Part shown: in pieces, positions 7,927-37,807 of the stretch
Position numbering within the stretch: the first letter of the stretch is position 1
Layout of the letters: every line of letters begins with the position of its first letter
Source of the DNA: Peribolospora baueri
Lineage: Eukaryota > Basidiomycota > Peribolosporomycetes > Peribolosporales > Peribolosporaceae
Length of the DNA stretch: 64,000 nt
Direction of reading: 5' to 3'
NCBI GenBank assembly: GCA_029717555.1
Contig: JAMDHS010000017.1
Coordinates: 1 to 64,000, forward strand
Notes under the pieces: generated by a model
What the model was told of the DNA's origin: nothing
Databases searched by the model: none
The model's input: the letters and a program-made list of their open reading frames with translations, nothing else
Made by a program: the position numbers and the translations under genes

Positions 7927-7966
<40 letters not shown>

Positions 7967-8357
7967 TGGCGGAGACGGATGGGGAGGTCGGGGCCGTGGA
8001 GGATTCCGTGGGGTGGTACGCGAGGGAGGAGGAGGAAGAGGAAGAAGAAGACGAAGACGACGACGAAGAGGCCAGCTTAGCCACGGATGTCGACCGCCGC
8101 TCGAGCTCAGGCGAACTCTCGTCGGCAGCTTGCTGATCTCCTTCTGGACCTGGCGAGAGTTTGACTCGCTTGGCCGGCGGGACGGCGTGACGTGCGTCTA
8201 GGGAAGAAGACATGACCGTACTGCTCGCGTCTGCACGGGCGGAGGTGTGAAGCTGGAGGAACTTGGAAGAACAGAAGCGATGGCGATGGGGCGTAAATGC
8301 GGCAAAGCAGCGGCGAGCTGGTGAAAGGGAGATGGGCGTCAAGCCGGATAAGAGCAT
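6378..8357 (-). CDS. DUS2: tRNA-dihydrouridine(20) synthase, DUS2/Smm1 family
   Basis: This FMN enzyme reduces uridine 20 in the tRNA D-loop. Exons (minus): 8357-7745, 7600-6954, 6821-6378, all GT-AG, giving 567 residues. The barrel starts at FLAPMVRISTLPTRLL. The catalytic cysteine lies in VNCGCPKPFSTEGGMGAALL, and KIRLLPD, VHCRTRHMR, VVANGD and MLARGAEANPSCF follow in the DUS2 order. The C-terminal helix KTYEELGAVF and a long charged tail follow. The N-terminus has runs of Ser (about 16) and Ala (about 10) encoded by triplet repeats. The first ATG gives an Arg-rich, hydrophobic leader (MLLSGLTPISLSPARRCFAA) that looks like a mitochondrial presequence. A second in-frame ATG (MSSSLDARHAVPPAKRVKL) would drop it and leave a basic PAKRVKL patch. 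Confidence 0.92.
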
Positions 8358-8525
8358 GAATCGGTGATGATGGTGGGCAGCGCGAGATCCGAGTCCGGAC
8401 AGGGTGCGTCAGTTGGTGAGATTTTGACTGCGGCAAAGATGCTCGACGTCCGTCCAGGGCCGTCGCCACGTGTCGCGCGTAATGCAGTCAACCCTGTTTA
8501 TAAGCATAAGAGTTGTGTAGCCCGA

Positions 8526-16572: not shown

Positions 16573-19500
16573 CTACCTCCCTGCCCCACCCCCATCCCTC
16601 GTCGAGTCCCTCCGAATGGCAGAGGTGACCATGCTCCCGAACCGCCTAAACTCGGAAAAGGCCTTGCTCCCCCCGCCCTGTTGCGGCGGCGACGAGGGAC
16701 GGTTGAATCCGTCCGTCGACCCGCCGCCGCCACCGAGACCGAATGGCCCCGTGCGACCCATCATCGGCGGGCTGCTCGGTCCACCCAATGCGTCCCCGCC
16801 GCCGCCGCCGAAGCCGAGGTGGAAGCCGGACGCGAAAGGCGAAAAGCCGGTGGGTGTGACGAGCGGCTGCGACAACGGTTGCGCTGGATCCATGTCGAGC
16901 GCGGTGAGGAAGGACGTGTCGGAGAGATCGTCAAGAGTGGATGTTTGGGAGAGGAAGAGGTCGAATAGCGAGTTCTGGTCCACTCGGCGCACTCCCTGTT
17001 TCGCAAACTCCCCATCCCGTTAGACACACACGGCCTTGCAGCTGCTACAAACAGAGCCGGAAATGCGACGCACCTTGAGATCGAGCATTTTCTGAAAGTT
17101 GGAGAAGCTACGATCTCCAATGAGGACGATGTAGTTCTGCACAAAGCCTTCGGGCGGGTAATCAGGCGTCATGATCACCTTGAGGATCGTCTCAAGGCGT
17201 GAGACGTGCTTGTTCACGTAGCGAGAGTACCTGCAATGGGCACCCGCGGAAGGAAATGGAAGTGAGCCCCGTGGCAGGACCGGACCGCCCGCCGCCGCTA
17301 GCACGTTGATCCTCACGACGTTGCCGCCGTCAATGTGGCTTCTTCCTCCGAGTACTTTGGAAGCTCTAGCAAGACAATTTTGACTCCCAAAATGTCCAGG
17401 AGCAGCTTTATTCGAACGCAAGGACCGACCGTCAGCACGTCCTCAAGAGCGTTGGTGAAGTCAGCTTACCTGTTCTGCGATCGTCTTGGAGATGGGCTTG
17501 AGCTTTACGATAGTCTGCGTGAATCGCGAGATGATGATGCTGCGAACAGACATGCATGCAAAAATTTAGACCGTCAGTTTCAAGCCACCGGCAGGTAGAT
17601 CCGTGGAGCTTGGATCAAGGCCGAGGCAAGTACGGCCGGCCGCCCTCACCCGATAGCCCTATCACAGAAGCTCCTCCAATACCGCTTGTTCTCCACCCTC
17701 TCCCTCACCGGCCTACCTATACTCCCCACCACCGCCGCCAGCTCGTCCACATACGCCGACGTGCCGCTGACGTGCTCGAGAGAGTGCCACGGTTGAGGCG
17801 GACGGAGCATGGCCGCGAAAGCGGGTTCGGTGGCTTGCTCGAGGTGGGAGACGAGAGAAGAGATAGAGGAGGAGATGACGCTGGCGGACGATGCGAGAGT
17901 AAGCCGCGAAATGAGCGAAGTGGACAAGGTTGGGAAGAATTAAATTCTCCACGCTCACCCCAAGAACACCTCCCTTTCATCCTCCAAGCTAACCCTCTCC
18001 TTAAAATCCTCATGGATCTTCTCTCGCAACTTGTCCTCGAGCTGCGAGACTGTCGTTGAGCAGTAGTCCGCCGTGTTGAGCACAAGACACGCTTTCAGGA
18101 GTTCGGTTTGGTTTGGACGTGAGTCGAACGATCTCCGGGACGGCGGTTCTGGTCTGAACGCCCGATCAAGCGGGTTCAGAGCGCGAGGCCAAATAGATGT
18201 CTAAGCGAAGAGGACGCGAAAGACGAACGTGTACGTTCCACTCACCGACCCAATCCATTCTTCACCAGCACTTCATCCGCGTAACCTCTGAGCCATTTCT
18301 TGTATACGCCACACAAGTCCAAGAACGGCGCCCGATTGCTGAGCTTCGCGCACGTCTCTAGTGTTTGTCGGTAGAAGAAGAAGAGTTCCGTCGAGGATGG
18401 TAGCACGGTCATGATCGGTTCCGTGTCCCCCCCGTGCGCTGTTGCGGAAGCTCCGCCAGCAGGGCCGGCTGTCGAAGCGTTAGGATGGGTCGAAGAAGAA
18501 TGATCGGCAGTAGGTTGGATGGGCATGGAGCGCCAGACGGAGAGCATGTCCGCGAGAGCTCTGTCCTGCGCCTCAACAAACACGCCGAGGTAGGGATCGA
18601 ATGTGCTCGCAAGCGTGGCTGGCGTCGTAAGGTTGGTCGATGCGGAGCCGACGAGCTCGGTGTACTGTGGATGCGCGTGTCAAAGCGAATCAGAGCTTGA
18701 TTTCGGCGAAAGATCAAACCCTTGGACTCACCGAAACGCCATATTTCTTGCTCAACCAAGCCTCAAACTCGAGCGTACTCTGCAAGCTCTCCAAAAGCAG
18801 CTGGACCCCTAGCGTCGGTCGAGCCTTGGCAAGGATGGCCTTCAGGTCATCTCTGAAAAGCGAATCAAATACGAGTCGTCAGAAAGATGAGGCAACAGGA
18901 AATAGAGCGAAGACTACGCGACCAGAGAAAATGAAAGAACAACTGACCTTGTGATCTCATTCCACTTGCTGCACAACCACCGCCCCACATCCCACTCCTT
19001 CATGAACAGTACGGCATGCTCCTCGTCGTGCGTTTTGAGTACCCTTCGAAACCACGCGAACCGGCGCGCGAGATTGTCCAATTGACCGGCCTGACGTGGC
19101 GACAGGTTTGCGAAAGTGGAAAACAGTCCGTGAACATTGACTGGTCAACACCGTCTGAGCAGCAGGAAAGCACTCACTTCGTCGGTAAGTCTGAAGATTC
19201 GTCGGTAGTCTCGCAACTGCAGTGCGCAGTACCAGTCCACGAGATGGTTCCTGTCGAGATGGTGGGGCAAAGGGAATATGACATGTGAAACGAGTGCAAA
19301 GGCCAGACGCAGAACTCATAAAGCTAACCTAGCGTCGTCCCCCAAAGCGCCGATGACCAAGCTCGCGTCAGCCATCGTCGCAGGACGCAGGCCGCGTGCT
19401 GCGCCGTCGTGAAGGAAGCTGGGGCGGAAGCAAGGAGGTGACGGTAAGTTAGCATCCAATACATGATCGTGCCCACTGAGATCGATCGAGTCTGCCTACG

Positions 19501-20509
19501 TGCGAGGGCTTCACGGCCATTCCTCCCGCAAAACTCACTAATCCTCAAAGTCCCGCATGCAGCTTTCTCTTGCCCTTCCCTGCAGCTCTTGGTTGACCCT
19601 CCACACAGCGGCAATCCTATCAACACTTGTGTATGGTCTGAAAAAGGCTTGCAAGCTTCTGACGGCTTGCAGTGTCTGCGCCATCTCTCGATAGGAGGAG
19701 GAGGACCGGGTGGAGCAGAGGCGAGAAAGGGTATCTGTTGAGGAAACTGTGGGAGGAAAAAGGGGATAGATCCAAAGAAATTCAGGTTAATAAGATCAAA
19801 AGACGTCGTCAAGTTACGCGCGGGAAGAACGCCTACCTAGCATCTGAAAGCGCTTGACCACGCTCATAGAAAGCTGGATGTTCTTCTTAGCAAGGTCAAG
19901 GGAGCGAATATCGCTGGTGATGTCGCGCACAACCACTTCTGACTCGGACGCCTTCTCTTGTATGCGTGAGAGCTGTTCGAAGAGAGCCTGTCGTTGGGAC
20001 AGAGGGTGAAAAAGAGCTCTCGTGAGACCGGACCATCCGAAGCAGAAGAGAAGAGTGGGAACTAAACCCTTCGCAGACTTACAGCAATCAACTCCTGAAT
20101 CTGCACTATACGCCCCCTCCCCCCTCCTCCATCTGCTCCGCCAGCACCATCCTCTCCTCCACCAGTTCGCTGCTCAGCATCGAGCTCGGCTCGCAGCTGC
20201 AAAATCTCGTCTTGGAGCTCTCTGATCTCGCTGCGGAGGCGGGCTTGGATCAAGGAAGCTTGGGAGAGAGACGATTCTGGGTCATGTAAAAAGAAAATTC
20301 AAGGCAAGAGAAAATAAGTAAAGTGAGCGCTGGAGTAAACAAAGTGACGGAAAGAGGAGATCGCTAGCCGTCGCGCAGAGACGGCCTTGCGACGACCCAC
20401 CGTCGGGAAAGAGTTCGTTGAGCGCATCCACCAAGCTTGTCTTCCCAAGGGCGGCGGAGAGAGTAGGAAACGGCGTCGGAGGAGCCATGGCGGTAGTGGC
20501 GGAAGCCAT
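16573..20509 (-). CDS. VPS53: VPS53, GARP tethering complex subunit, 15 exons
   Basis: GARP tethers endosome-derived vesicles at the trans-Golgi network. Exons (minus): 20509-20401, 20276-20083, 19987-19837, 19734-19539, 19418-19329, 19250-19178, 19090-18948, 18852-18732, 18664-18246, 18153-17959, 17880-17650, 17539-17470, 17405-17317, 17230-17074, 16995-16573. Every junction is GT-AG and in phase, giving 886 residues (family about 830). Near residues 100-150 the helices IQEKASESEVVVRDITSDIR and LDLAKKNIQLSMSVVKRFQM are the Vps53 N-terminal signature. Later come FDPYLGVFVEAQDRALADML, TELLKACLVLNTADYC, IIISRFTQTIVKLKPISKTI and RLETILKVIMTP, all in family order. The last exon adds a Gly/Ser/Pro-rich tail (FGLGGGGGSTDG) absent from short homologues. 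Confidence 0.95.
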
Positions 20510-21127
20510 GACCCGTCTCCTCAGAGCGGTGGAGCTCAGGTATAACTATAGCAAGTGAGACGGGTGAGCAACGAATGGCGGTTAAGTTCGGACGTGAGTG
20601 GCCTGTGCAGGCAACCGCAACTGATGTCACGTGCCTCGGTCTGACGTGCGCCTCCCTTTTCTCTTCGGCCTCATCGTCCTCGCTCCGTTTCAGACTGGCC
20701 CAAACCTGACCCGGCCCGGGTTGGCGGCCGATGCGGCCCCCTTCCCAACCCTCCACTCTCATCTTCCCTATTTCTTCGCTTACTTCGAGCTCTCAACACC
20801 CTCGAATATGATTGGCCTTATTTTACCGCCAACACGTGTGCGGCCAGTGCCTCTCGCGCTCAAGGCACCCAATTTTTTCTCGATTTAGAGCGTCCGGTTG
20901 CTCATGGGCTCAGGCAATGCGCGTCGGCGCGGCTTCTAGTCCTACTTTCCTGCTCCCTCCCGCGTACGTTGAGCTGCACATTCTCTCGGCAAAGAAGGAC
21001 AAGTAGGGCAGGGCATGGTTTGCAATGAGGTCTGAGCATTTCTATGTTGATCATGGACAATATCATTGGTTTATACAAAGTTCGTCTTCCGAAATGATAC
21101 CTGTTCGTCGTCATCCTAGCTATCTAT
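20510..21127. promoter_or_regulatory. Spacer upstream of VPS53; no gene seen
   Basis: About 620 bp between the VPS53 start and the stop of the FAD monooxygenase. It holds the VPS53 promoter and the 3' untranslated region of the monooxygenase. No gene or repeat is supported. Confidence 0.45.
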
Positions 21128-22799
21128 CTACTTAGGAGCCATCATGGTAGTCGGAGCCTCTGGGCGCCTTCCGCGGTCGTCAAGGAACCAGTTGAGCGAG
21201 TGGTCTTCGACGTGCTTGCGGACGCCAGTCCAACCGTACGCGTTGCGCTTCCGCTTGAGGTGCTGAGCGACTTCGTCATCTGCGTGGTTCTCGCAGCGGT
21301 AGCCGTACTGGAGGCACTGCGTGCGCGGGTCTCCCCAGAGGTTGGGCGTGCGGAGGTAGTGGATGCCTTCGAGCTCGACGCTCATGGCGCGGTCGCGAGC
21401 TTGCTGGTCCGGGCCGTCGGGGAACTGCCAGATGTGACCCTGGGTGATGGAACGTTCCTGCGTCTCCGTCGCCCTGTTCAAGCGCACATCAACGTAAATG
21501 TCAAGCGCCTCCTTCAAGGAGAGCTGGCCCTTGTTGACGTAATCCGTCACACGGCCCAAAACGGCAGCGTCCTCGATGGCCATGGCCGCCCCTTGGCCCA
21601 TGTGGGGGAACATGGAGTGGGCTGAGTCGCCGAGAAGGGTGACCTTGTAGCTCGGCGCGTTCCACGTCGGAAGGGGCTTGGTGAGGAGGAGACCCCAGCG
21701 AGTGCACCATGTCGTCGCCTTGATAATCTTGGCCACGACTGGGGCGAAATCAGCGAAGTCCTTGAGTGCTCCGGCCTGGCACTCCTGGTCCGGAGCGTCG
21801 GGCGGATTCGGGTCTTGCTGCGACGTGACGATGTTGATGTACTCGTTCCCACTCATGGGGCTGAAGGCGAGAACATAAAAATCGCTTGAGTTTCCGCTGT
21901 CACCGTAGGAAAAGGGAAGAGATAGAAAACTCACTAGGTGATAAAGTATTTGTTCTGGCCCATCCAGAGGTTCATCGCCGGCTCCTCGTACAGCTTGTTC
22001 AGCTCCTCGTCGACTGCGCGAAGGTCGGCGGTCTTGACGCTCATACGGTAAGCCGCGGCGTTGCCACCGGGGTTGTAAGGCTCCGCACCGGGGAACATGG
22101 TCCTGCGGAATACCGACTTGACACCATCAGCGCCGACGAAAAGGTCTGCCTTGACCACCTCGCCGGTGTGGAGGGTGACCGACGGCGCATCGACGTCGAC
22201 GGAAGAGACACGGGCGTTGGTGCGGACGATGACGCCGAGCTCCTCAGCGCGCTTGATGAGGCAGGTGAGCAGGTCGTGTCGGTGGAGCGTCCACCAGGGC
22301 GCACCCAGGTTGCGCTCCATGAGTGGGTTCAGGTCCGAACGGCCGATCGGCTTGCTAGTCTCCCATCGGTAGATACGGAAGTCTTTGGGCTTCACGGCTC
22401 GGTCGCCGAGGAACTTTGCCGCACCCCACTTCTGGAGCAGGTTGCTAACGTTCGAAGGTACCTGGATACCAGCACCGATCTATATACCGTGAAAAGAGAC
22501 GGAAGGGATCGGTTAGCGTCAAGAAGGAAGGGCACATAGATGGAACAGGCAAGCACACAGGCAAGCGCGAGGCCAGCACGAGGCTGCCGATTTTGGACAG
22601 CCCACGTCGTGGACACGCTCCGCAAGGCGACATGGCAAAACAAGAACAGAAAAGAAAAGATGCAACCGAATGTACTCACTTCACCGAGCTCGGGTGCTGC
22701 TTCGAGAATGGTGACCTTGCAGCCGGCGAGGGTGAGCGAGACAGCAGCGGCCACGCCACCGATGCCGCCGCCGACGATCTTGACGTCGAGAGATGGCAT
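21128..22799 (-). CDS. Group-A FAD-dependent monooxygenase, salicylate-hydroxylase-like
   Basis: A predicted NAD(P)H-dependent aromatic hydroxylase. Exons (minus): 22799-22680, 22479-21935 and 21896-21128, giving 477 residues. The second intron is only 38 nt. The N-terminal dinucleotide fold is VKIVGGGIGGVAAAVSLTLA (GxGxxG). The DG motif is LFVGADGVKS and the FAD-ribityl GD motif is VTLLGDSAHSMFPHMGQGAA. These three place it in the para-hydroxybenzoate/salicylate hydroxylase class. There is no signal peptide or membrane span. It is transcribed away from the alpha/beta hydrolase across an 813-bp shared promoter, which suggests joint regulation. The substrate cannot be read from the sequence; a phenolic acid or a polyketide-like aromatic are both possible. 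Confidence 0.9.
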
Positions 22800-23612
22800 A
22801 CTTGAATGAAGAAAAGACAGAGAGGAGGGCTGGGTCTAAGGGGATTGGGTGAAAGCCAGAGGGAACGATGCTGAGGGTAGAGTCCTAGGCTACAGCAGAC
22901 TGGCTCTTTTATATGCTAGACAGGTGTCTGTTGTCGCTCGGCCCAAGATAGCTCAGCTCATCTGCCGCCCATACGAGCCTGTTTTCCACCCTGCCTCTCA
23001 TCGCAGCGACAGGTAAACGAGAAAGAACGGATAGCGTTAGCTACATGCGCTGTGGGCCTTCCTTCGGGTTGGACTCTTGGTCGACTTGCGTGAACGCACT
23101 GATCGTGCAGTGGAGAGACAGAGATCCGTGCGGGGTAAATTAGGGAGGATATCCGGTGCAGACAACCGCGTCCCGTCGGATAGCTGAGATCCGCATCATA
23201 TCTATCCGGCGTACAGGGCCGAGGCCGGGGCCCCGCTTTGTCGGCTGGCCGCGTCGCATCTCGTCCCGGATACCTGCAGGAGTCCGGCTACCACATATTT
23301 GGTACCACAACATCTCAGCGGTGCACTCCCACTGCGTGAAGCCAGCGGCGGGTTAGGGTGCGCACGGGTGTGGGTCGTCTCGGTTCAGTTCGGCACGACC
23401 GCATCAGTCTCCACTTCCGGAGACAACGTCATCCTGTGCGGAGAAGCGAGTCCTGAGAAGGAGGGGGGGAGGCGACGTCTACTTTACAAATACCGGCCTT
23501 GCTACTTCCGCGCACCCCGGCACACGGATCTTCACTCTACCCAGCCTGAATCCTTCTTCTGCCCTTCTCAACGCCCCGCTCACAACAGACTATACAAGAA
23601 CGTTCCCACATC
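22800..23612. promoter_or_regulatory. Bidirectional promoter of monooxygenase and alpha/beta hydrolase
   Basis: The 813 bp between the two divergent start codons carry five copies of TATCCG or its complement CGGATA, at 23028-23033, 23150-23155, 23177-23182, 23203-23208 and 23267-23272. About 0.1 would be expected by chance in that 245-bp span. The copy at 23200-23212 (ATCTATCCGGCGT) is identical over 13 bp to 25652-25664 in the transcription-factor promoter. Zn2Cys6 proteins usually bind CGG-containing sites, so these are candidate sites for the cluster regulator. A palindromic GGATATCC overlaps the second site. Confidence 0.55.
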
Positions 23613-25271
23613 ATGTCTACTGTTCCGCTCAAGACTGTCGACCTCGCCTCCGGCATCACGGCCGCTTACCGCCAAGTGCCTGAGCGTTTCGATTCAGCGA
23701 AGCCGACTCTCGTCTTCCTGCACACTTTCACCAGCCACAGCTGGTATTACGGTGAGTGAGCCTCGGGCCTGATCGTGTATAGTTGATTCTGTTTCCCTTG
23801 GTTTCCAATTCATTAACACCGTGTTATCACCTGATTCACCGCCCATCGCTCATGTCGGCTTGCAATCTTTCCTCAGCCGAACAGCTCCAGAGCAAAGAGC
23901 TCACGTCCCGGTTCAACTTGCTGGCCATTGACGAGATCGGCCATGGCTACACCGAAGGTCCCCAAAAGTGGACTTTCTGGGTGTGTGACCGCTCGAGATT
24001 CAGCGTTTCCTGCCTTCTGTCTATTTTACTTGTTCCCATGCACAGCTTTCTGATATAGATTCGATCTGTTTTTCCAACTCCATCTGCCACGTCTTGCGCT
24101 GAACCAGGATACGGCCAAGATGGCGCTTGGTGAGTAATCTCTTGGCTTTATTCGGGAAGGAGGGATCCTGTCATGATGCGTCTTGTGGAAATCTGACGCA
24201 CATATCTCCGTCTTTTGATACTCTTATCTCCCATGCCGTTCCAGACGTCATGGTGAGTTAGCTCGCCACTTTTATGGAGTGAATGATGGTCCAGATTCGA
24301 TCGACTGATTTCTCACGGGCTTCCCCCTCGTTTGCGCATCTCGCTTCTCATTGCCGCATCTGTGGCTTGTTGCAGGACGCCGTTGGTGTCAAGAAGGCCT
24401 TTGCTTTGGGTAGCAGCCAGGGAGGTGCCATTGTCGCGCAAATGGCGCTACTCGCTCCCGAAAAGATTGCCGGTCTGATTGAAGCCGGGTGCGTATCCTG
24501 TTGAGTGTTTGGAATGGAATACTCTCGTACGTAAGACGAACCTGCCATGCTAACGTGGACGCATTTTTTTTTCCCTTGATGCCCTCGACAGGACGTCTCT
24601 GGACGCGGAAACTCAAGAGACTCGGGATCTCGGTTGCTGGAACGTGCCTGCCGTGGAAGCTGACTGGTACGCTATCCTGGACCCCGGACACGCTACCCCT
24701 AACTGGGTCGTGCCGGACAAGGCAAGTTCATTTTCTTTCCAAACGTCTGCCCTTGTTAGCACGGTGTTGGTTTGCTGACTTTCCGGCGCAATCAACTTCT
24801 TCCTTCACATCAGATCACCAACGACATCATGGGCGTCGGACTGGGCGAGGACGTTCCCGCTCCCTTCGGGGCTTATTGGAATGCTGAACACAAGAAGATC
24901 TTTGGCGGGCAAGAGGGTCGTGAGAAGCTCCTTCAGGCGTCCAAGTGCCTCTTCGAGCGCGACAGCTTGGTTCCAAAACTCGACTCCATTACCTGCCCGG
25001 TCCTCATCATCCACGGGACGAGGGACAACGTGTTTTCGATCCCGCTGGTTCACAAATGGGCGGCTTTGCTCAAGAATGCGAAGGTCCAAACTGAAATTAT
25101 CGAGGTCCGTTTGCTTTGCTTCGCGTTTTCAACAGCGACGGAGCCTGTGCCTGACTCTTTCTGGTTTTGCGCACCGCTGCACAGGGTGGGCACCATTTCC
25201 TGACGGTCAGTCACGCTCCCGAAGTGGAGAAGCTGGTGATCAACTTCATTGAGCAGAACACGAAGGCGTGA
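23613..25271 (+). CDS. Alpha/beta-fold hydrolase, enol-lactonase/C-C-hydrolase-like
   Basis: Exons: 23613-23751, 23877-23980, 24108-24129, 24245-24252, 24376-24488, 24592-24721, 24814-25104, 25185-25271, giving 297 residues. The 22-nt and 8-nt exons encode only KMAL- and DVM-like pieces but keep the phase. The sixth intron begins with GC (AAG/GCAAGT), a known minor donor. LVFLHTFTSHSWYY holds the oxyanion-loop region. The nucleophile elbow is GSSQG (S105), the acid is D243 in IIHGTRDNVF, and the histidine is in GGHHFLT (272/273), so the triad looks complete. The fold is shared by 3-oxoadipate enol-lactonases, C-C hydrolases and epoxide hydrolases, so the reaction is not fixed. Being paired head-to-head with an aromatic monooxygenase favours hydrolysis of an oxidised aromatic product. 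Confidence 0.88.
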
Positions 25272-25873
25272 GGCGCACGACGTCAACACTATCGTTCCCA
25301 CCATTCTCGTGATTTTTTGAATTTGTGACGTGTTATAGTACCCAGGTGTGGTTTTGTTATGTAGCCAAATGGCGGGCAGCGAGTGTGCTGAATTGGATGA
25401 CCACATTTACCGCATGTTGATCTGCCTCCGTCCATCTACCTGTTCGAGGGTACACCTCGGACGGACTGGCTTGACGGACCTCCGAACATAGCAAAGGGCT
25501 AGCTGATGTAAAAGCTCATGTGAGCGAACCGCTGAACATAGCAAAGGTGCCAGCTGACGTACAGGATGGCTAGACTACACGGGCAGAAGTAACGTAAGCT
25601 GCACGAGGATCAAGCGTTCTTATGAGGTCAGCATAGATCTCATGAACGGACATCTATCCGGCGTGAGTCGAGAGGAGCACGTATCCGAAGGGTCGGAAAG
25701 CTGCACAAAAGCCGTCGCAGTCACGTGAAGTCTCACGGAATCAGATTGGCGGGATCGAATAGCTCTGCGGCCGCATCGCCGATGGCCGGCTTGTGGGGCA
25801 CCGCAGCCCCCATGTCCCGTCGCTGAGTGGACACATCATCCTTCCTCCCTTCCACCATGGAGCTCCCTCCCTG
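25272..25873 (+). promoter_or_regulatory. Promoter region of the Zn2Cys6 regulator gene
   Basis: This 600-bp spacer separates the hydrolase stop from the first ATG of the transcription factor. Two TATCCG sites occur near its end, at 25655-25660 and 25682-25687. The first lies in the 13-bp word shared with the divergent promoter. This fits autoregulation, which is inference. A near-repeat of about 16 bp (GAACATAGCAAAGG) is seen at about 25486 and 25533. Confidence 0.45.
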
Positions 25874-28800
25874 ATGACCACCATTCCCGCATCGCCTGCT
25901 GTCCCTAGCCCCTCTCCTGGTCCATGGACCACACCGGCAGTCATACCTCCACCGCCACTGTCGCCAGCCTCCATCGCCGCCGAAGCCGCCCGCGCGCGAC
26001 GCCGAGTCAAGCCGGAGAAGCGCAAGCGAAGTGCCATCAGCTGCGACCTTTGCAAGGCCAAACGTATCAGGTGCAAGCGCTCGAAGCTTGGAGAACCTTG
26101 CGAGGCGTGCATCAAAGCAAAGGTTGACTGCACCCATGACGCCCCTCGAAAGATTCGCCGGGTGTTCGGTAGCGAAGCGGCAGTGCTGTTTCCGGGCCAT
26201 GCTTACCTCCCGACCTCCACACGTTCTTCCGGTCACGAGCGACGATCGTCTGGGCTCTCAGATCGTGGCGATGAGACGGGGATGCGTTTGAAGGCGTCGG
26301 TCTCGACGCAAAGGGCCGAGACTATGCCACGGCAGCCGTCCTCGTCGGTCTCTCCCGCTCCCCACGGACCAACTATCGATCACGACCGCCGCGCAAGCTC
26401 GACTGCCGCCGTGGCTACAGCTTGCTCAAGTACGTTCGGTGGTGATGCTTCCATAGGCCCTTCCACCGCAAACCCATCTCCCGAATCTTTTGTGCCGCCA
26501 GAAGCCGTGTCATGCGGTCCCTCTGCGCCTAGTGGTCCCGCATACGCGGAAGCTGGCCTTCGAGAATCGAGCTCGAGGCCGGCAGGTGCAGCAACGGGAT
26601 CATCTCCTGTTTCTCCGGAGACGGAAATTTCAACACTCTCGCCGGGCCTGTTGCAGGCTGACCTCCGGGGCCGCCCTCGATACGTTGGACCAAGCGCTTC
26701 GCTGCACTTCTTCGCCCAGCTGCGGGACATCATGTCCAAACACGAGCCCAACTCGGAATTCGTTCGAAACGGACTATTCCGCGCTCTTGCCAGCTTTGAA
26801 GACCCCTTGCAAGGCCCGGTCAAGGAAAGAGGACCGAAGGGCGGGGGAAGGGGCCCTGCGGACGGCCCCGGACGTCGCATGGAAAGCGGCTCTGCTCCAC
26901 CCTCGTCGTCGATTCGCGGAGCCTGGCCTAGTAGAGAGTGGAAAGGGCTTACGAAGACGGGTCCGCTTAAGATGCCTGCGAGATGGTGAGCATTTGCACA
27001 GAACACGTATTTCCTGTGTTTTGGGCACGTGCGGATTGACTGGTTGACACCGTAAATTGTTCCTCAGGCTCGCCGACACACTCGTTGAAGCGTTCTTTAC
27101 CCGCGTCCATGGCGACTTCGTTGTCTTTCATCGCGCGACCTTCTGGTGCCGATACGAGTCCATGTGGAACGCCTCTGGCTCCAATTTCGAGCAGGATTCT
27201 GCCTGGACGTGTTCCGTTTGCATGGTGCTGGTTCTGGGAGCTAGCGCCATAATGGGTAACGTCGCGCCATTCGGCAACAACAAGGGCGCCTCTGGAAATG
27301 GTACTGGTTGCCAAATCTCAAGCTCCCAAGCACAGTCCCCGGCGGACGCGGCACCGCGTACGGACTCGTACGGGTTAGCTGGCGTCGCATCGAACACTCT
27401 GAAGGGAATCCAACGGCGATATTACCGACATGTCGAGGCCCTCCTTCCCCGGGTTTTGTGCGGTTCGTCCCTCGCCAACATTCAAGCCATTCTTCTCGTC
27501 GCCGTATACATTCACAACGAGGACGAGAGGGAGGCCACGTGGAACCTGACGGGCTCGGCCGTGCGCATGGCGTTCGCAACCGGGATGCACCGCAAAGAGA
27601 GCGCTGGTGGCCAGCTCCAGAGCGAGTTCGGCACACTGGAACGTGAGATGCGAAAGCGTTTGTGGTGGACGCTTTTCACCTTTGAGCGGTTCCTATGCTC
27701 CAGCATGGGAAGACCGAGTTCGATCAATGACGACGACGTCGACGCCGACTTGCCTAAGGACAGCATCCTCGACACCAGCGACCAAGGCCCGCTCGGGTAT
27801 CTCTGTCAGAACGTGCGTTTATTTCAACTTGTCGGTCGCATCTGCAAAACTGTCTACAACCCCATCAATCAGCCCGAGGACAAGACTGCGGTGGCTGTGG
27901 CCCTGTTCGACGAACTGAAAGCGTGGCGAGAAGCCGTGCCCGCCCATCTTGATCTTGATATCCCGCAAATCCCCACGCACCGCCGCGCGCTACTCCTCCT
28001 GCATATCCAGTATCACAACGCCATCTCGCTCCTCACACGGCCATTTTTGATTCTTGAGACCAACGACGCCGGACCCAGTGACCCCTTCGCACACATGGAC
28101 GGACCGATTGGAGACGGACACTGGAAGCAACAGGCCGAACTCGCCTACACTTGTGTTAAATCTGCACAAGCGTGCGTTGCTTTGCTGCAGACCCTACGAA
28201 CGGAAGGCCTGTTCAACGCGACGACCTGGTTCGACACTTGGTGGACCTATAGCAGCGCCATGATCCTTGCCATACCGGTCATTTGGAAGCATGGGCGTCG
28301 AGCGCCTCGAGGTGACAACCAGAGAGGGATTCAAGGACGCCAAGCGACGGGAAGGAGCACGTTGGAATCCCCCGACGATGACGCGGGAAGACGAGGTGCT
28401 TCTGAGTCGGGCGGAGACATGCCAGTCGCTGAGCAAGCCGAATTGTCCGTAGCTCCAGCAGCGTCCTCTAACGGAAGCAGCCCCCCGGCCGTGCTCAAGG
28501 TTGAGACCGCCGAAAGGGCCAAGGAAGACTTTCGGACTTGCCTGGACCTGCTGGATGGGCTTGCCCTTCGCGGCACTCTAGCACGCTTTGCTGAGGTGAT
28601 GAATAACCTGGCCAAAGCCGTTGGCGTATCCGTCTCTCTGCGACACGGACGAGAGCGATCGGGGAGGAGAGGCCAGCCTGGCGCGAGGGAAGGGAACGCA
28701 GAGCGCCTCGGTTCATGCCACGAAGCGGGCACGCTGTCGGGGACTTCCAAGGTTCTTCAAGCGCACCTTTCTCGCGGCCGAGAACAGGCGAAAGTTAGGG

Positions 28801-29372
28801 TCGTTCCGGTTGAGCCCTCATCGGAAGCGTTTAACCTCCCTCGCCACGACCTTTCGCCGCTCACCTCGCCCAACAGCGTGGGACCTTCGCCCACTGGAGC
28901 ACAATCCATTCAGCAAGTCGACAGCAGCGCGCAGGCTTCCACTTCGAGAACGCCGTTCCCATTTCAAATGCTAACTCCGATGACGGGGCAGATGATACGA
29001 AGAGATAGCGTGTCAGGGGACGGATACGGGCTTCATAATGGCGCAGATGCGTCGAGTTTGGATGGCACCCTCGGGCCTAGCCCGGGCGCCATGTCCGATT
29101 TCCGCGCTCAACTACTGCATCCTCAGCACGATGGCAGCCGGGTGTACGACGACTGGGCCGGCGTCTTTGAAGGACCGCTGGGTATCTTTAGCGGACTCAG
29201 CATGACGGAGCCGGCCGGGGGTGGTGACGGCCTGTGGGGTGATCGAGCAGGCGTTGGTGTTGGCGCAATGGGTGGGACTGGTGTTGGAGATGAGAGGACG
29301 GCGTGGGAAGTGGCGATGAACTGGAATTGGGACCAGATCAGCTCTGCGCTCCTTCAGAGCAACCCTTTGTAA
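25874..29372 (+). CDS. Zn2Cys6 transcription factor with fungal regulatory domain
   Basis: Two exons, 25874-26985 and 27068-29372, with a GT-AG intron, giving 1138 residues. The binuclear zinc cluster CDLCKAKRIRCKRSKLGEPC continues with EACIKAKVDC, spacing C-x2-C-x6-C-x8-C-x2-C-x6-C (C57 to C86), after a basic stretch. The middle-homology region starts after the intron (LADTLVEAFFTRVHGDFVVF) and includes ILLVAVYIHNE, RMAFATGMHRK, RKRLWWTLFTFERFLCSSMG and GRPSSINDDDVDADLP, all typical of the fungal-specific regulatory domain. Long Ser/Pro/Gly-rich linkers lie between and after. The open frame reaches further upstream, but only through non-ATG codons, so I start at MTTIPASPAV. It sits inside the monooxygenase-hydrolase-methyltransferase group and is the likely pathway regulator. 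Confidence 0.93.
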
Positions 29373-30408
29373 CAACAGTGTATGTAGAAGAAATCCACGC
29401 ATCGTCCAGCTGTATTATGCCTTGGGTGCGTGCTCCCAGTGTCCGACAGTCTCGACTGTTGTGAATGCGCCCAGTTGCATTCGTCGGTCGAGGAGCGGGG
29501 ATCTGGCCGGCTAAAAGAACGCCTGCTCGGAGCGGGGATGAGAAGAGCGAAGACGGGTACCGCTCGTCCTTGGTGGATGGATCGCCGCGCGCCTGGAGCT
29601 GGTGCTGGTGGTCCGAGTCGCAGCCGGGAACCGTCCGCTCGGGCGCTCGAGACATGGTCACCATACCATGGCCGCCGGACGGGCATGTATGGTGGGACCA
29701 GTGGAGGCGCACTCGCACGTCTGTGGGGGAGAGAGATTGGGCTGCGGACGTACCGAGGGTGCAGATGCGGGCACGGCAATCGAGCGCGGCTCACAGCCTT
29801 GTCCCGGACTTGCGGAGCCTCCGACTCGGAACACGGCCACTCGGCATCGTTTATCCTGTACCACCACTGAGCTAAGTCCATGCCGAGCCATGTCCGACGA
29901 GGACGACAGCCGGTGGAGGCAGTCTCACCTTCCACCACTGACAGTAGCGCGTACAGCATCATTCCTATTGTCCGCGCTTCCGGCTCCGCATTCACTTAGT
30001 CTCACGCGGACCGCCCATTCACTTCCCCGTTTTCTACCCGTCTTCTTCCATCACAGCTTCCTGACGGCGACAGTGTGAGCGCTTGGAATACAGTCGTCCC
30101 TCGGCGCCGCACGGACGGGGGCGGAAGGCCGAGCGGGAATCCTGTCCGCGACTCGGCGGATCTGCCATGACTCGTCTACGCTAGCTACATCAAGTGGATG
30201 GGACCTGAGACGGGCGAACAAAAGGGACAATGATGACACCGACGACGAGGAAGAAGAAGTTCCGCCGTGAGCGCCTCCGCGTCCTCATCGACTGGCCAGG
30301 GCCAGCATCTATTTATTGTGTGGCTGCTTTCTCATGGATTCGCCCCATCACGGACGGTGCTCAGCCCACACTATATCCTCTTCTCGTTGCTGCTAAGGCC
30401 TTCTGGAC
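29373..30408. other. Spacer between regulator and O-methyltransferase; no gene seen
   Basis: About 1 kb holding the 3' end of the regulator and the methyltransferase promoter. No TATCCG site was found here, unlike the two promoters to the left. Open frames on both strands look like compositional noise. Confidence 0.45.
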
Positions 30409-32326
30409 ATGGGTAATTGGAACAAAGCTGCTCAGCTGAACGCTCTCAACGAGCTCGCGGCTACCGTAAAGGTCAGTCAGTACGTTACACTCGCTTCCTG
30501 TGGCCACTGGACTCACAGGATCGGTCGTGTCGCATACCCCTGCAGGAGCTCACCTCGTACCTCGAGAGCCAACCTGACGATGCACAAGTCCATCCCGGCA
30601 CCTGGCACTTTCCATGGACTCCGGCATCGGGGAAGACCGCGCATGCCTTGAGAAGGAACTACGAGTGGGTCGTGTAGCATCAGTGATCAGGGCGGCATTG
30701 GTCCGTCGCAACTTCTGAACTTCGGCTCCTCTTTCGTCCCCGCTACCAGGACCGTGCTGCGGAGCATACTGTCTCCCGGGCAGTACATTCTCGAAAACGC
30801 TCTAGCCATCGACGAAGCTTTGGCTATCACCACTCTCTTGGAATATGGCATCCCCGACCAACTTGACGAGGGGGAGGTGAAGAGCGTGGAAGAGCTCGCC
30901 AACAAGAACAACGCCCTTAGCGTCTCCCGCATCGAGGTCCTCCTTCGCCTCGCTGCCTCCTTTGGTATCTTTGAGGAAGCGGAGCCGCTGTCCGGCAAGT
31001 GGAGACATACCCCTCATAGTTTGATGTTGCGCAAGGACAGCTCTGTCCCCGTGTGGGCCTTGGTCGAGTATAGGTGCGTCCATCTGGGGATTCTACGCAG
31101 CATGCCTGTTTCTGTCTGCCTTGATCTTAATCGACGTAAATTTCTCTCATGTTGCCCCCCGGCTTTTCGACTTAACAGTAGCGGCGATTGCCTCAATGCG
31201 GTTATACGTCTCCCGGAGCTGTGCAAGAAGGACTCCGAGCACATGTCGGGCATCGAGTTGCTCTTCCAGAAGCACCGCTTCGTCATAAATGCAGAGGACT
31301 CGTTCAAGGCGGAGCTATTCAACATCGCCATGAAGGCTGCCAGCTCTTATCTGGCCCCTGGACCCTTCGAAGGTACGAATGACATCTGGCAAACACGGAG
31401 TTGGCGTTGGCCTCCCTGTGAATTCCTCGCCCGTGTTGCGCAGAGCACAGAGCTGAATTTCTTGCTTGCTTCACGGTGAACCCCCCGTAGACTATGATTG
31501 GGCGTCTCTCGGCAAGGACGTCACCGTCGCCGACTTGGGCGGCGGAATCGGAAGCCACGCAATGTACGCTCTTGCCCGTCATCCCAACTTGCGCTTCATC
31601 GTCCAGGATCAGGCGCATGTGGCCGAAGAAGGGCGCCAGGTGAGTAGTAGTATCCGGGCATCCCGTAAAGGTCAAAGCGCGGGCGAAAAGAAGAAGGGCT
31701 TGGTGTGACATTGGATTGTTCCGCCACATTGCCATTTGCGCTTTCGTTCAGTACTGGGCCAAACACATGCCCAAGGAAATGAACGAGCGCGTGGAATTCC
31801 AAGCGTAAGTACCGTATGCGTCGTGTTGTTGGCTGAGGGATAGCGAAGTGTCAATCTCATTGTTGTCTTGCCACACCTAACGCCCTTCTTTCATTTCGTC
31901 TAGTCACGACTTCTTCAAGCCACAGCTAATGCAGGTGGCTGACGTGTACTACATGAGCAGCATCATTCACGACTGGGACGACGAGGACGCGATCAAGATT
32001 TTGCGTGCCCTGAGGCAGAGCGTTCGGCCGGGTACGAAACGTGAGTCTTCAGGATTCCGTTCCGCTGTCATATCCTCGAGTTCTCATCCCCACCTCCCAC
32101 CCCGTCTATTGTCCTGACCAACTCAGTCCTCGACGCCGAAGTGGTCATCAAGCCGTACAATGACCGCTACACGCACACGATCTCCGTGCACATGATAGTG
32201 GCAGTCGCCGCCAAGGAGCGCACAGCCGAAGAGCACACCCGTCTTCTCAATGCGAGCGGATGGGAGGTGAAGAAGATTTGGGATACCAGGAGCGTATTGA
32301 GCATTATCGAGAGTGTCGCAGTGTAG
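30409..32326 (+). CDS. SAM-dependent O-methyltransferase, family 2
   Basis: A predicted methyltransferase for a phenolic or polyketide hydroxyl. Exons: 30409-30471, 30546-30587, 30691-31073, 31179-31372, 31491-31639, 31752-31804, 31904-32040, 32127-32326, giving 406 residues, the usual family length. The SAM site is VTVADLGGGIGSHAMYALAR. The segment YYMSSIIHDWDDEDAIKILR carries the His-Asp pair used for catalysis. The substrate-side helix region includes RIEVLLRLAASFGIFEE. The N-terminal splice is uncertain. A donor at 30588 gives a 103-nt intron like its neighbours; a donor at 30669 would give a 22-nt intron and 27 more residues. I prefer the first. It is separated from the regulator by 1 kb and oriented the same way. 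Confidence 0.88.
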
Positions 32327-32680: not shown

Positions 32681-35600
32681 ATGTCAGACCGAACCGATGA
32701 GGGCGAAGTGCCCTCTCCACTCAGCGCCAGGTGGTTCCACGCGCGCGAGAAGGAATGGTCACCATTCTCCCCCAAGGACAGCACTGCGCTGGAGAAGGCT
32801 TGGCAAGCGCTGACGGACGAGGAGCGAGTGGAGCACAAACGCAGGAGAGAGAGGGAGCGTGCGGAGGCGGAGGAGAGCAGGAGGAGGAAGAGAGAGGGGG
32901 ACAAGGGCGCGGAGAAGATGTTGGTAAGCATCCATGAGGGTTTCGTCCCCGACCCTTCCGCCCTATCCTTCTCCGCCCTCGCTTCTATGGTCGGTGTCTC
33001 AGGCGCAGACTGGGTGAAGATACCAGGCAACAGTGGTCCTTCTTCGTCGCACGGAGACTTTGACGTTTGCTCTCCTTCGCTTTCTTCCAAGTCCTTGCCG
33101 TCGTCGGAAGGGGAGGGCGAGGACAGGGATGAGAGAAAGCAGAAGGGCGACACGGGAGCTGCCGCCGCGCCTGAGTGGACACCGAGAGACCCGAATGAGC
33201 CACTACCGCATTGGAGGGTGCCGGTCGCAGAAGACGCGCTGTACGAGGTTGACTTGAAGTCCATGAAGGTGAGCTGGGCCATCGTTCAAAAGTTAGCGGT
33301 CCACACGGTTTCCAGTTAACGGTCCCACCATTGTCACTCCTACCGCGGGTCTGCATCGCAAGCTCTTCCCGGTCTTCTGGAAAGGCGCGGAGCTGGACGT
33401 TCTGAGAGCTACCTGGTTCTACGACTCTGCAGATCGCTTCTTGCCCGTGGATAGAGATCTGGCGGACGACCTCGAGGAAGCGTATAGGTGAGCGTGCAAG
33501 CGGTGTATGCACCAGCCGGCCAATCTCTTATGACAGGGTCCTCGTTGAACGCGCGCCCTCGCCTCATTCCCTTTGCTTCTGCGCTGCCATAGACGTATTC
33601 AACCGTGGCAAGCCTCCTATGCCGAGAAGATGCGAGCAAAAGCGTCCGATCAGAAGGACAAGAAGGATGAAAAGGACAGCGACAAGGACGACCAAGTGGT
33701 ACGCCTGTCGTCCCTCAAGGACGGATATGTCATCTTCGTGGACGGAAAGTGCGCTCGGCTCTACACGTGGGTAACTCTCCTTGATTGTAGCGTGCCTACG
33801 TGGACCTTTACGCTGGTCAGCGTCGCTCATATTCGCTCGATCACTCGCAGCGGAGGCATAGTCGGCCGTCTGTCCGACTCCATTCGCGAAGCCTTCTCCT
33901 CCGTGGGCGGGTCACTCGTCCTCCGCGGCTTCGATGAGTACATGCGCCGACGTAGAGGCGAGAGGGACGGCAAGGCCAAGTCGCAGCCCAAGAGAGTTCA
34001 GACTCAACCAGGTCAACTGACGAAGGAGGCATCGAAAACAGGCGCCTTCGATCGACCAGCTGGTGCGGCGAAGCCGTCTGCGCCCCAGTGGAGTCGACGC
34101 CATTCCCAATCAAGAGATGAGGTAGAAGGAGACGATGAATCGGAAGGAAGCGGCGACGATGGTATTGGCCTCAAGACTTCCAACTTTTCCTGGCGGGAGA
34201 TGAACCTCTTCGACCTCCTTCCCGGTCGAAGAGCCGGGAACCAAGGACAGCGCCCTCAGAACGAAGAGGAGAGGCGAGAAGCGGTGACGAATGAAGGCCT
34301 GGACGGTGCACAGGAGAGGCACGCCCAGCCGGTGGACACGGTGAAGGACCTATTCGAGGACGACAGTGGGGTTGTTATCGGTGGACTAGGGGATGAAGAA
34401 GAGGCAAGCGAAATCGAACAGAGAGGTGGTGTTTCCGCTGCTGTGGAAGAGGAAGAGCTCTGTAAGGAGGAAGCCAACCGGTCGCCGGGAGACGAGGAGG
34501 TCACGGTAGAAGAGCCTCCCCACCTCGTTCTCGTCATCCACGGCATTGGTCAGAAGCTCGCGGAGCAGTGGGAGTCCTTCGACTTTGTCTATGATGTGGC
34601 CCGTTTCCGCAAGCTGTCGAAGTAGGTGGCGCCGAGCTTGAACGCCTCTCCGGTCTTGGCAGAGCTTCTGACGACTCTGGTTTATTGCCCCGGACTCAGG
34701 CGTCAAGCACGACAAGAAGGCGTCGCGTCTATCATGGGTGGCTGCCGTGCTCAGGTGATTTCCTGGACTTGGACCTTGGGCACGATGATCATGTCTGTTG
34801 ACGTTGCTCTCCATTCATGCCTCTGACGACATCTTGTCTTCAGTTCATACCCGTCTGTTGGCGAACGCACATCCGCTTCGAGAATCAGGAAAAGGAGGTC
34901 AAGGACGAAGTTCTGGACAACACTTTCTCTTTGGACGACATCAGCGGTGACAAGGACTCTATACCCCTCGTTCGGACGCTCATCAGTCATGTTATGTGAG
35001 CGGATTGCTACATTCGCTGGTCAAGGATGAAGATTGTGGTGGAATTTGGGCGACGTCTTCCCTTCGAGCTGACAACGGGAACTCTCTTCTTGTCGGGCAT
35101 ATGCTATATCGTCTTCATTCCGCAACGCACCTCACCCTCCGGCAGCCTAGATGTGCCCTTCTACCTCTCCGCCCACAAGCACAAAATGGTAGAAGCGGTG
35201 GTCGCAGAGGCGAATAGGATGTACCGCCTGTTCTGTCAGCGCAACCCTCGCTTCGCCGAGAATCCCAAGGTGTCCGTCATCGCTCATTCTCTGGGTGCCG
35301 CTCTTGCCACCGACATGTGAGTCTCCGTGCAGCTGCAAATCCTGCTCGGGTGGATGAGGGAGAAGAGGAGTTGATCGATCGCCCGTCCTCTCACTTCGAT
35401 CAGTCTCTCCCAGCAGCCAGACCACGTTCCACCGCTCTCGTCGACGCCGAAAGAGGAGCTCGAGACGCGCAAACGCTTTCTTTTCGACACCCAGCAGCTC
35501 TTCCTCGTTGGATCGCCCACCGCGTTCTTCCTCTTCTTGGACAAGGCGCAGCTCATCGCCAGGAGTGGACGATCTAGGGTCGTGGACGAGAGGAAGGGTG

Positions 35601-36792
35601 TGACGTTGGACGGGAGGGGCGTGTACGGCTGTTTGGCTGTGGATAGGTGAGCGTCCCCAAGCATCCTCGGACCGCGTGGTTCGGCGACGTGGGTGTGTGG
35701 CGATCCCGACGCTCATGGAGGTTTCCGGCGAACTGCTCGTGGCGGCGACGACAGCGTCTATAACGTATACAACAAGTCCGATCCGGTCGCTTACCGAATG
35801 AACGCCACGGTGGACTCGGAGTGAGTAGGAGCGGTGGGCTTGGCATTTTGCGTTTTTGCGCCGAACGCGTCCCCGTCGGATTACAGTTTGCGCTTTGACG
35901 TGTCCACTCACCTCTCACACTTGGTTTCTATGTCTGGCCTTCCACGAACTGTCGAATTGGACCGAACAACTCGAAAGATATGCCAAATACTTATCCCCAG
36001 TGCCCATTTCCTCAGCGGTTGAAGGCCTTCTCGACACGCTCGCCCTTCCGCGCCTATCGGTCACCAAGTTCTTGCAGTCTCGCAAAATTGCCTTTGAACC
36101 AGGATCGCCTACCGGGTCGAGGGCCGGCATTGACGCCAGGTCGGACCCTTCCAATGTTGCCGAGAGCGCTAGGAGCGATGGGAACCCAGAAGAGTCAGAG
36201 GGGACGAGCGGGCCGGGTTCAAAGGGGACGAACAGTCCACGGACGCCGCGAACACGGCCAACGATGACGAGAAGGAATGCTGAGCTGGAATTGGAGATGG
36301 AGAAGTTGGAGAGGGCGCAGCAGAGGTGAGGTGGTTGTTGCGTCTGCCTTTTGGTCCCCTCCGCGGATGACATCCCGACGTTAGCCTGAACGTGCTTTTT
36401 TTTTTTTTTATCTTTCGGAAATATGACCTGCCGCCGATCCGGGACGACAGGTTCAAAGCTCTCAACCCGCACGGATGTCTCGACTTCTATCTCGAACCGG
36501 ACAACTACGAGTATCTGGCCATGTTGTCCGCTCATCAGGGCTATTGGGAAGGTGCGGTCCGTCTTGCCACACTTTGTCGTTTTCACTGTGAAGAGGCGGC
36601 TGAGATATGTCTATCCCTTCCTTCTGCGTGTCCATCTATGATTGCTGTCCTTATCCAGACCCTCAATTCTCCGCGTTCGTCCTACTCCAGCTGTTCTCTT
36701 CGCAGCGAACGCTCGAGGCGGCGGGCGGAATGCTGAAAAGAGGCGAACAAGCCGTCACGGGCTTCGAGTCCGAGCGCAGCAGGGCCGAGTGA
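32681..36792 (+). CDS. DDHD-domain phospholipase A1 (phosphatidic-acid-preferring type), 12 exons
   Basis: This intracellular lipase should release the sn-1 acyl chain of phosphatidic acid or related lipids. Exons: 32681-33268, 33363-33487, 33593-33766, 33851-34621, 34700-34754, 34844-34995, 35146-35316, 35404-35646, 35755-35820, 35978-36325, 36451-36551, 36659-36792, all GT-AG in phase, giving 975 residues. The N-terminal part has EVDLKSMKLFPVFWKG and RATWFYD, the conserved block of the family. HLVLVIHGIGQKLAEQWESF gives the first lipase strand. The nucleophile is S670 in SVIAHSLGAALATD. The DDHD domain follows: QQLFLVGSPTAFFLF, VYNVYNKSDPVAYRMNATV, then RFKALNPHGCLDFYLEPDNY and SAHQGYWE. 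An insert in exon 4 and one in exon 10 are acidic and disordered. The closest studied relative I recall is the yeast YOR022C type. Confidence 0.93.
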
Positions 36793-37807
36793 GGCTCAAC
36801 CCGTGTGAATCGGGAGGGTCAGGGCTCTTATGGTACACGGCGGCGGGGGGATGGTGCGGGAGGAGAGGCGAGCGACGCCGGTGAGGGCGACGGCGAGGAT
36901 CAAGGGGCGAGCGAGAGACAGCCATCGTGGATCTCGACTCTAGCCAGCTCGTAGCGCGGGCTTCCTTTGGTATCGCTAGGTCATCCTCTCTTGGTGCGTC
37001 GGTGTGCTCGTGTCGTTCGTCTCGTGTCGCCTCGCTCGGTTCCTATGGGTTGCAACGAGCCGAGGATGTTTCATACTCCGGACCGGATCGTGCGACGGGT
37101 TCGATCAAAGAACTGAAATGCGAGACTTGGGCGTCGTTTGTAAGCAAATTAAAGGTCATCATCATCGGCCGGGCCGCGCCGCGATTACCGCCCGGCATGC
37201 GTTCATTTTTCACGAGGCAGTCCGTTGTCGCCTCGGAGTCGGGCGACGTCGTCGAGGGCGAGAGCGGAGCGAGACAAGACGACAACGGACGGACGTAGTT
37301 GCAGTCAGCCAGCCAGCGCGATCAGCCGGTGTCATCACCATCACCATCACCATCACCATCATCATCACCATCATCCTCATCATCATCATCATCAACTTTA
37401 TCATCTCCATCTCCATCCCTTTCAGCCTCGCAACGAGCATCGCCTTCCCTCCGTCCAAATCAGCCTCAACTCCCTCTTGCCCTGCCTCGCTCTTCCTCTC
37501 GCGTCCCGCAGCCCTCCTTATTCTGAACAGGCGCCCGTTGCCGTTGCCGTTGCCGAGCAACCCCAGCCGCCGTCGCCCATTCGCAACGCAGCGCCCCGCT
37601 TGCTTTGAGTTGCCACACTCGCAACCCTCCCCGTCGCCTGCCCGACTTTTAACTCTATCCCAGACAATTTCCACGGTCATCCAGAGGGCCCTGCTCGCCC
37701 TCATGAGCTTATACTCGCAACGTCGCTTTTGAAACGACGATCGTCATCCGTCCCCTCGCTCTCTGCCCTTGCTCTCTCTCCTCCCCTCATCCCGCCCTCT
37801 CCCCACC
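36793..37807 (+). promoter_or_regulatory. Upstream region of the CRAL-TRIO gene with CAT/CAC repeat
   Basis: About 1 kb between two plus-strand genes. It contains a tract of CAT and CAC triplets at about 37332-37394, then pyrimidine-rich sequence leading into the next start codon, as is common for fungal 5' leaders. No protein-coding exon is supported. Confidence 0.5.
37332..37394 (+). repeat. CAT/CAC triplet microsatellite
   Basis: About 21 triplets of CAT with interspersed CAC, bracketed by non-repetitive sequence. It lies about 410 bp upstream of the CRAL-TRIO start codon, probably in the promoter or leader. Confidence 0.8.

Follow-up and report, generated by a model that had tools for sequence, protein, structure and literature searches.

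A candidate locally regulated gene module for aromatic-acid oxidation in Peribolospora baueri

Introduction

Do four adjacent genes of the basidiomycete Peribolospora baueri, encoding a group-A flavin adenine dinucleotide (FAD) monooxygenase, an alpha/beta hydrolase, a Zn2Cys6 regulator and an O-methyltransferase, make up one pathway, a smaller unit, or no unit at all? They occupy positions 21128 to 32326 of the first 64 kb of contig C87 (294,108 bp, in a genome of 22.1 Mb and 178 contigs); this 64-kb stretch is called the window here, and its spliced genes, Zn2Cys6 regulator and VPS53 gene point to fungal DNA. An earlier note on the same DNA had read all four genes as one pathway, serving either the breakdown of a plant phenolic or the tailoring of a small aromatic metabolite, with a lean towards catabolism. 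The analysis reported here confirmed the observation and partly supported its interpretation: a cluster is proposed with moderate confidence, and its most plausible form is a small module under local control that would oxidise an aromatic acid of plant or lignin type, a reading that I consider about evenly balanced between right and wrong.

Results

Gene structures at the locus

Clean spliced models were obtained for all four genes, which lie side by side between VPS53 and a DDHD gene as the earlier note had it. After splicing, each model gives a continuous frame free of internal stops, and 16 of the 17 introns are GT-AG and one is GC-AG, with splice sites picked by hand from frame and homology, not derived from transcripts. 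The monooxygenase gene (465 amino acids; 21128..22799, minus strand; exons 22680-22799, 21935-22479 and 21128-21860) begins head to head with the hydrolase gene (297 amino acids, 8 exons; 23613..25271, plus strand), their start codons being 813 bp apart, and this divergent arrangement, also described before, suggests that the two genes share a promoter, so that the region between them (22800..23612) is treated as a putative bidirectional promoter. A regulator upstream region (25272..25873) leads into the regulator gene (1138 amino acids; 25874..29372, plus strand; exons 25874-26985 and 27068-29372), which is followed by the methyltransferase gene (406 amino acids, 8 exons; 30409..32326, plus strand). 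The locus runs from one stop codon to another: 21128 is the final base of that of the monooxygenase, on the minus strand, and 32326 the final base of that of the methyltransferase. The classes claimed for the enzymes and the regulator were borne out by Pfam scores above the cut-offs, and the catalytic motifs proved intact in all three enzymes, as detailed below.

A rare promoter word possibly linking three of the four genes

The heptamer TATCCGG occurs eight times in the window, counting both strands, and three of the copies fall within the 813-bp divergent region, at 23150 (+), 23203 (+) and 23266 (-). One further copy precedes the regulator, at 25655 (+); the remaining ones are found in a methyltransferase intron (31651) and at 8344, 52077 and 60153. 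In addition, the 13-mer ATCTATCCGGCGT is common to the divergent region and the regulator upstream region. In contrast, the 1036 bp between the regulator and the methyltransferase contain no TATCCGG and share with the divergent region no word of at least 10 bases. The word distribution suggests a unit of monooxygenase, hydrolase and regulator, from which the methyltransferase was left out because TATCCGG is absent upstream of it. By this distribution the notion of one unit would apply to the first three genes, and the place of the fourth in it is doubtful.

Controls, which ranged from weak to good, were run on 184 kb of sequence from the same genome. When matched for complexity, 439 of 19,645 random segment pairs (2.2%) had a 13-mer in common, and the complete arrangement, in which one segment has a rare 7-mer at three spaced positions and its partner has it once, turned up in 0 of 19,670 random pairs. 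As the control segments overlap one another to a large extent, and as the word was already known when the criteria were chosen, these figures are indications, not probabilities. Across the 22.1 Mb, a spaced TATCCGG pair was found in two places, and in one place in a backwards control. Separately, two copies 84 bp apart were noted on contig C142 (stretch L043, 8298 and 8382), ~10 kb from an intradiol dioxygenase match. A CGG-N-CCG arrangement was tried as a candidate site and rejected: only spacings of 4 and ~8 to 11 recurred, in twos of the three upstream regions, and none was convincing, as each spacing has 26-57 matches across the window.

The monooxygenase

The monooxygenase scored 87.3 bits for Pfam FAD_binding_3 (cut-off 22), and its motifs GGGIGG, GADGVKS and GDSAH, read from the sequence, correspond to the GxGxxG, DG and GD fingerprints of group-A flavoprotein monooxygenases, to which it is assigned on both counts. 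Its best matches among solved structures in the PDB were 8gsm, labelled 4-hydroxybenzoate decarboxylase (270.5 bits), 8r2t, labelled FAD-binding domain protein (262.5 bits), and 8x38, a decarboxylative vanillate 1-hydroxylase (255 bits), with a tropone 2-monooxygenase fourth at 168.6 bits. The decarboxylative enzymes stood more than 100 bits above chains labelled salicylate hydroxylase or monooxygenase. The three leading structures are of the MNX1 and VhyA types and carry the same group-A fingerprints; 8gsm may be VibMO1 and 8r2t an MNX1. By these resemblances the protein is likely to be an aromatic-acid hydroxylase, and likely to decarboxylate the acid.

In a search for relatives, 7,999 candidates were scored, 7,739 of them passed E<=0.001, and the best 120 of these entered a quick tree of 124 rows together with the query and three PDB stretches. 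With a midpoint root, the query grouped with P0026, P0027 (Exophiala viscosa), P0028 (Fonsecaea monophora), P0063 and P0097, at a support of 95 in the Shimodaira-Hasegawa-like approximate likelihood ratio test (SH-aLRT). This set of six rows lay outside a 74-row clade (SH-aLRT 98) that contained 8r2t and 8x38, so that in this tree the query is not a member of the clade of decarboxylative 4-hydroxybenzoate and vanillate 1-hydroxylases; both sets were united in an 82-row branch (support 92). The best PDB match, 8gsm, was placed on the opposite main branch, and the long rows around it there carry an unsafe flag. The exact placement is unsure, given the long query branch, the quick tree and the midpoint root.

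The pocket region, compared in 21 of the 124 rows, showed a similar division. The query reads GAPWWTLHR and PHMGQGAA, and its five group members have PWW together with HMAQ or HLAQ, whereas the rows compared from the 8r2t/8x38 clade (n=7) have PYRAQ in all cases and PYY or TYY after the glycine in 5/7. Counting against the grouping, the stretch QGAAMAIEDAAVLG of the query is closer to the 8r2t/8x38 clade, with which the query has QGAAMAIEDAA in common, than to the QGAATSMEDGA of its own group, and identity barely separates the two (42.8% to P0026 and 40.9% to 8r2t, over the 8r2t stretch compared). A direct assignment to 4-hydroxybenzoate or vanillate was dropped since the query falls outside the 8r2t/8x38 clade, and the substrate was left unassigned because of this position, the company of black-yeast proteins and the differing pocket motif.

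The hydrolase

The hydrolase scored 85.7 bits for Abhydrolase_1 (Pfam cut-off 25.8), and Ser105, Asp243 and His273, which probably act as its catalytic triad, are invariant in all 18 aligned sequences (the query and 17 relatives). Among 1,109 candidates, 25 relatives reached E<=0.001, the best at 48% from Lyophyllum atratum and Collybia nuda; Alternaria, Ascochyta, Hortaea, Sanghuangporus and Rhodococcus were also represented, and 18 of the 25 came without an organism name. The family has no assigned function and occurs in some fungi and actinobacteria. A predicted model of the Lyophyllum relative (mean predicted local distance difference test score, pLDDT, 92.8) was used for a fold search, in which the best 50 rows comprised esterases, enol-lactonases, perhydrolases and others at 15-21% identity. 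The identity of the hydrolase as the 3-oxoadipate enol-lactonase PcaD was rejected, its NCBIfam score being 66.3 bits against a cut-off of 255.85.

In the hydrolase tree, the query grouped with two mushroom proteins (96/64, not starred), and bacterial sequences lay inside a set in which those outer members that carry a name are fungal; the tree was rooted at its midpoint, which gives no direction of transfer between fungi and bacteria. The family was found at 75 bacterial loci (L054-L128), 67 in Actinomycetota and 8 in Pseudomonadota, and none of the 75 had a homologue of the monooxygenase, the regulator or the methyltransferase nearby, as judged from open reading frames (ORFs) of at least 90 codons, E values up to 1e-5 and flanks of up to 8 kb, with several loci being shorter. 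The hydrolase itself aside, the most frequent neighbour family was present at 16/75 loci, where ORFs were chosen by codon-position G+C content, a rough filter; another ORF set consisted mostly of antisense frames, the DNA being GC-rich.

The regulator

Fungal_trans was matched with 96.5 bits (Pfam cut-off 23), and Zn_clus with 23.4 bits (cut-off 21) on the N-terminal piece, the latter not being reported on the whole protein; on these domains the protein is assigned to the Zn2Cys6 regulators. Only eight of the 7,991 candidates scored with residues 40-760 reached E<=0.001. The closest, P0146, was 75% identical over 47%, followed by proteins of Lojkania enalia (27%) and Emericellopsis atlantica (25%), and the best other match in the genome itself was 37% over ~100 residues. 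As far as the word-based search reached, the regulator appears not to be broadly conserved. A five-codon upstream reading frame was also observed at 25857-25876 of the window (context CCACCATGG), whose TGA overlaps the regulator ATG as TGATG, and which may possibly subject the regulator to control by reinitiation.

The methyltransferase and the flanks

The methyltransferase scored 95.9 bits for Methyltransf_2 (Pfam cut-off 22.3), and its best PDB match was the O-methyltransferase gedA, in alignment with which HDWDDE and two later Glu were located. A His and two Glu are the catalytic residues of COMT-type O-methyltransferases, and the protein is placed in this class by domain and motif. Its membership in the unit is doubtful and it may be a neighbour only.

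The flanks have the housekeeping-like character attributed to them before. VPS53 lies to the left (approximately 16800..20545, minus strand), where exons matched Vps53_N at 3.4e-12 and VPS53_C at 2.9e-17. A DDHD-type phospholipase lies to the right (approximately 32681..36800, plus strand); the domain was found at 3.1e-5 on one exon, the ORF 36371-36733, slightly below the cut-off (24.7 against 28.3 bits), and an HGIG stretch is present near 34.5 kb. As stated in the earlier note, no polyketide or peptide synthase was detected, here among 20 ORFs from flanks and gap scanned with Pfam, and neither these nor the four genes included a ring-cleavage dioxygenase or a transporter. Three ORFs tested between the regulator and the methyltransferase had no Pfam domain. 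Farther left in the window, a dihydrouridine synthase gene (Dus, Pfam) was observed at 6381-8408 (-), and an open frame of 970 codons at 11016-13925 (-) combined a high codon score with no Pfam match at 0.001.

Relatives and ring-cleavage genes elsewhere in the genome

Diverged relatives of the monooxygenase were located on contigs C106 and C121, of the hydrolase on C101 and of the methyltransferase on C115, C92, C162, C31 and C4. Twelve stretches, 11 of them around such relatives or dioxygenases, were examined (C101, C106, C115 and C121 covered; C92, C162, C31 and C4 left out), and none contained two different members of the set. At C106:170402-170911 a second match to a monooxygenase exon was 39% identical, and no hydrolase or methyltransferase homologue was found in the stretches examined there. 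TATCCGG was absent near the C106 relatives in three stretches; in the stretch of the hydrolase relative it occurred once inside the gene and once ~2.7 kb upstream. Another FAD_binding_3 gene was observed on the same contig as the locus, ~120 kb away (C87:144103-145368).

Intradiol dioxygenase matches were found on C94 and C142. The C94 exon scored best against hydroxyquinol-type enzymes (82.6 to 61.2 bits), a chlorocatechol enzyme coming next at 35.1 bits, and a TATCCGG ~0.5 kb before this frame is unremarkable at about one copy per 12 kb. At least one HgmA_C match exists in the genome, on C141; a second homogentisate-type dioxygenase acting as methoxyhydroquinone enzyme was considered and rejected, as only this one match was obtained, a count that is a lower bound. 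Because intradiol dioxygenase and HgmA_C matches are encoded on other contigs, downstream ring cleavage is possible in this fungus, with genes that do not appear to be clustered at the locus. Catabolism is favoured because a hydroxyquinol-type dioxygenase is encoded elsewhere in the genome, which, together with the decarboxylative nearest structures, upholds the lean expressed before.

Discussion

How might such a module work? A substrate or related inducer would activate the Zn2Cys6 protein, which would bind sites of the TATCCGG type both in the divergent promoter and upstream of its own gene, so that the three genes would be expressed together. The FAD monooxygenase would hydroxylate the ring of the aromatic acid, probably with loss of the carboxylate, giving a hydroquinone- or hydroxyquinol-type product, and the alpha/beta hydrolase would open or trim an ester or lactone, either before or after hydroxylation. 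Dioxygenases encoded elsewhere would then cleave the ring, and the methyltransferase would be either an accessory that caps a phenol or an unrelated neighbour.

Known systems offer precedents for this scheme. TvMNX1, CpMNX1 and VibMO1 have been grouped as 4-hydroxybenzoate-type decarboxylative hydroxylases, and a white-rot route leads from 4-hydroxybenzoate through hydroquinone and trihydroxybenzene to ring cleavage (PMC12915361). The P. baueri enzyme differs from the MNX1 and VhyA types in the tree, where it stands with Exophiala, Fonsecaea and unnamed proteins. In Candida parapsilosis, the 3-oxoadipate and gentisate clusters have in-cluster Zn2Cys6 activators, Otf1p and Gtf1p, established by deletion and gel shift; the present locus is alike in its local Zn2Cys6 protein and flavoprotein hydroxylase (MNX2 in the gentisate cluster there), but those clusters contain a ring-cleavage dioxygenase and further pathway genes (PMC8929692). 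The patchily distributed ascomycete gentisate clusters likewise combine an FAD hydroxylase, a C6 regulator and a hydrolase, namely salicylate hydroxylase sahG, C6 factor ctfG and fumarylpyruvate hydrolase fphG, but have a gentisate dioxygenase, a stilbene dioxygenase and a transporter that are lacking among the genes here (PMC3914699). A further difference is that the hydrolase of P. baueri is an alpha/beta hydrolase. The fphG product presumably has another fold. In the vanillate route of Aspergillus niger, comprising VhyA, MhdA and the esterase OmeA, a flavin hydroxylase and an esterase also serve one aromatic-acid route; by locus number vhyA (NRRL3_9897) lies apart from omeA and mhdA (NRRL3_10110 and 10111), and omeA adjoins a ring-cleaving dioxygenase gene, which has no counterpart here (PMC8336404). 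The locus therefore resembles known fungal aromatic clusters in outline, without the ring-cleavage gene, and could plausibly be a variant of them; no description of such a cluster was found in the open-access literature searched.

Several results weigh against an aromatic-acid module. The genes lack a ring-cleavage enzyme and a transporter; diverged relatives of the enzymes exist on other contigs; the six-row set of the query lies outside the 8r2t/8x38 clade, with 8gsm in another main branch and PWW and PHMGQ in the pocket in place of PYY and PYRAQ; and in simple controls 6.2% of 2,954 random pairs had a word of at least 13 in common and 10.7% of 1,470 random pairs reached the 7-mer enrichment score.

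Some of these results would equally be expected if the genes were chance neighbours, that is, a divergent monooxygenase-hydrolase pair that happens to lie beside a regulator and a methyltransferase, neither of them related to it, in a stretch without housekeeping genes. The scattered relatives with no two set members together in 12 stretches, the bacterial loci and the weakness of the simple word controls all fit such a reading, but it does not account for the clustering of the rare TATCCGG in the divergent region and its recurrence before the regulator, nor for a regulator without close paralogue in the genome. I regard it as unlikely, if the best of the alternatives.

A cluster of all four genes, in which one regulator would govern the hydroxylation, hydrolysis and O-methylation that tailor or detoxify a single small aromatic, is rather improbable. 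The genes are contiguous between housekeeping genes and the methyltransferase is intact with gedA as its best PDB match, but its upstream 1036 bp have neither TATCCGG nor a common word and no core synthase was seen in the scanned ORFs. The single four-gene pathway that had been proposed is disfavoured on the same promoter evidence and by the 0/75 bacterial loci.

A similarly low probability attaches to a salicylate or 3-hydroxybenzoate hydroxylase, which would lead into a catechol or gentisate route and would replace the decarboxylative 1-hydroxylase. The best NCBIfam models for the monooxygenase are indeed 3-hydroxybenzoate 6-monooxygenase (200.1 bits) and salicylate 1-monooxygenase (153.6 bits), its group relative P0027 is named a salicylate hydroxylase by its source, and the query stands outside the 8r2t/8x38 clade; however, both scores fall far under the cut-offs of 459 and 446.35, in models intended for bacterial and archaeal annotation, and the decarboxylative enzymes lead by more than 100 bits in the PDB scores. 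Least probable, and quite improbable, is that a distinct fungal flavin monooxygenase subfamily of PWW/HMxQ type works with the fungal and actinobacterial hydrolase family in an undescribed aromatic-acid route under a TATCCGG-recognising regulator, where, for example, the hydrolase would open a lactone or ester made by the monooxygenase.

A small, locally regulated module for aromatic-acid oxidation is thus the preferred reading. How fungi channel aromatics from plants and lignin into central metabolism is known only in part, and here the locus contributes two groups of enzymes that have no assigned substrate, a regulator for which the search gave few relatives, and a concrete candidate for its binding site.

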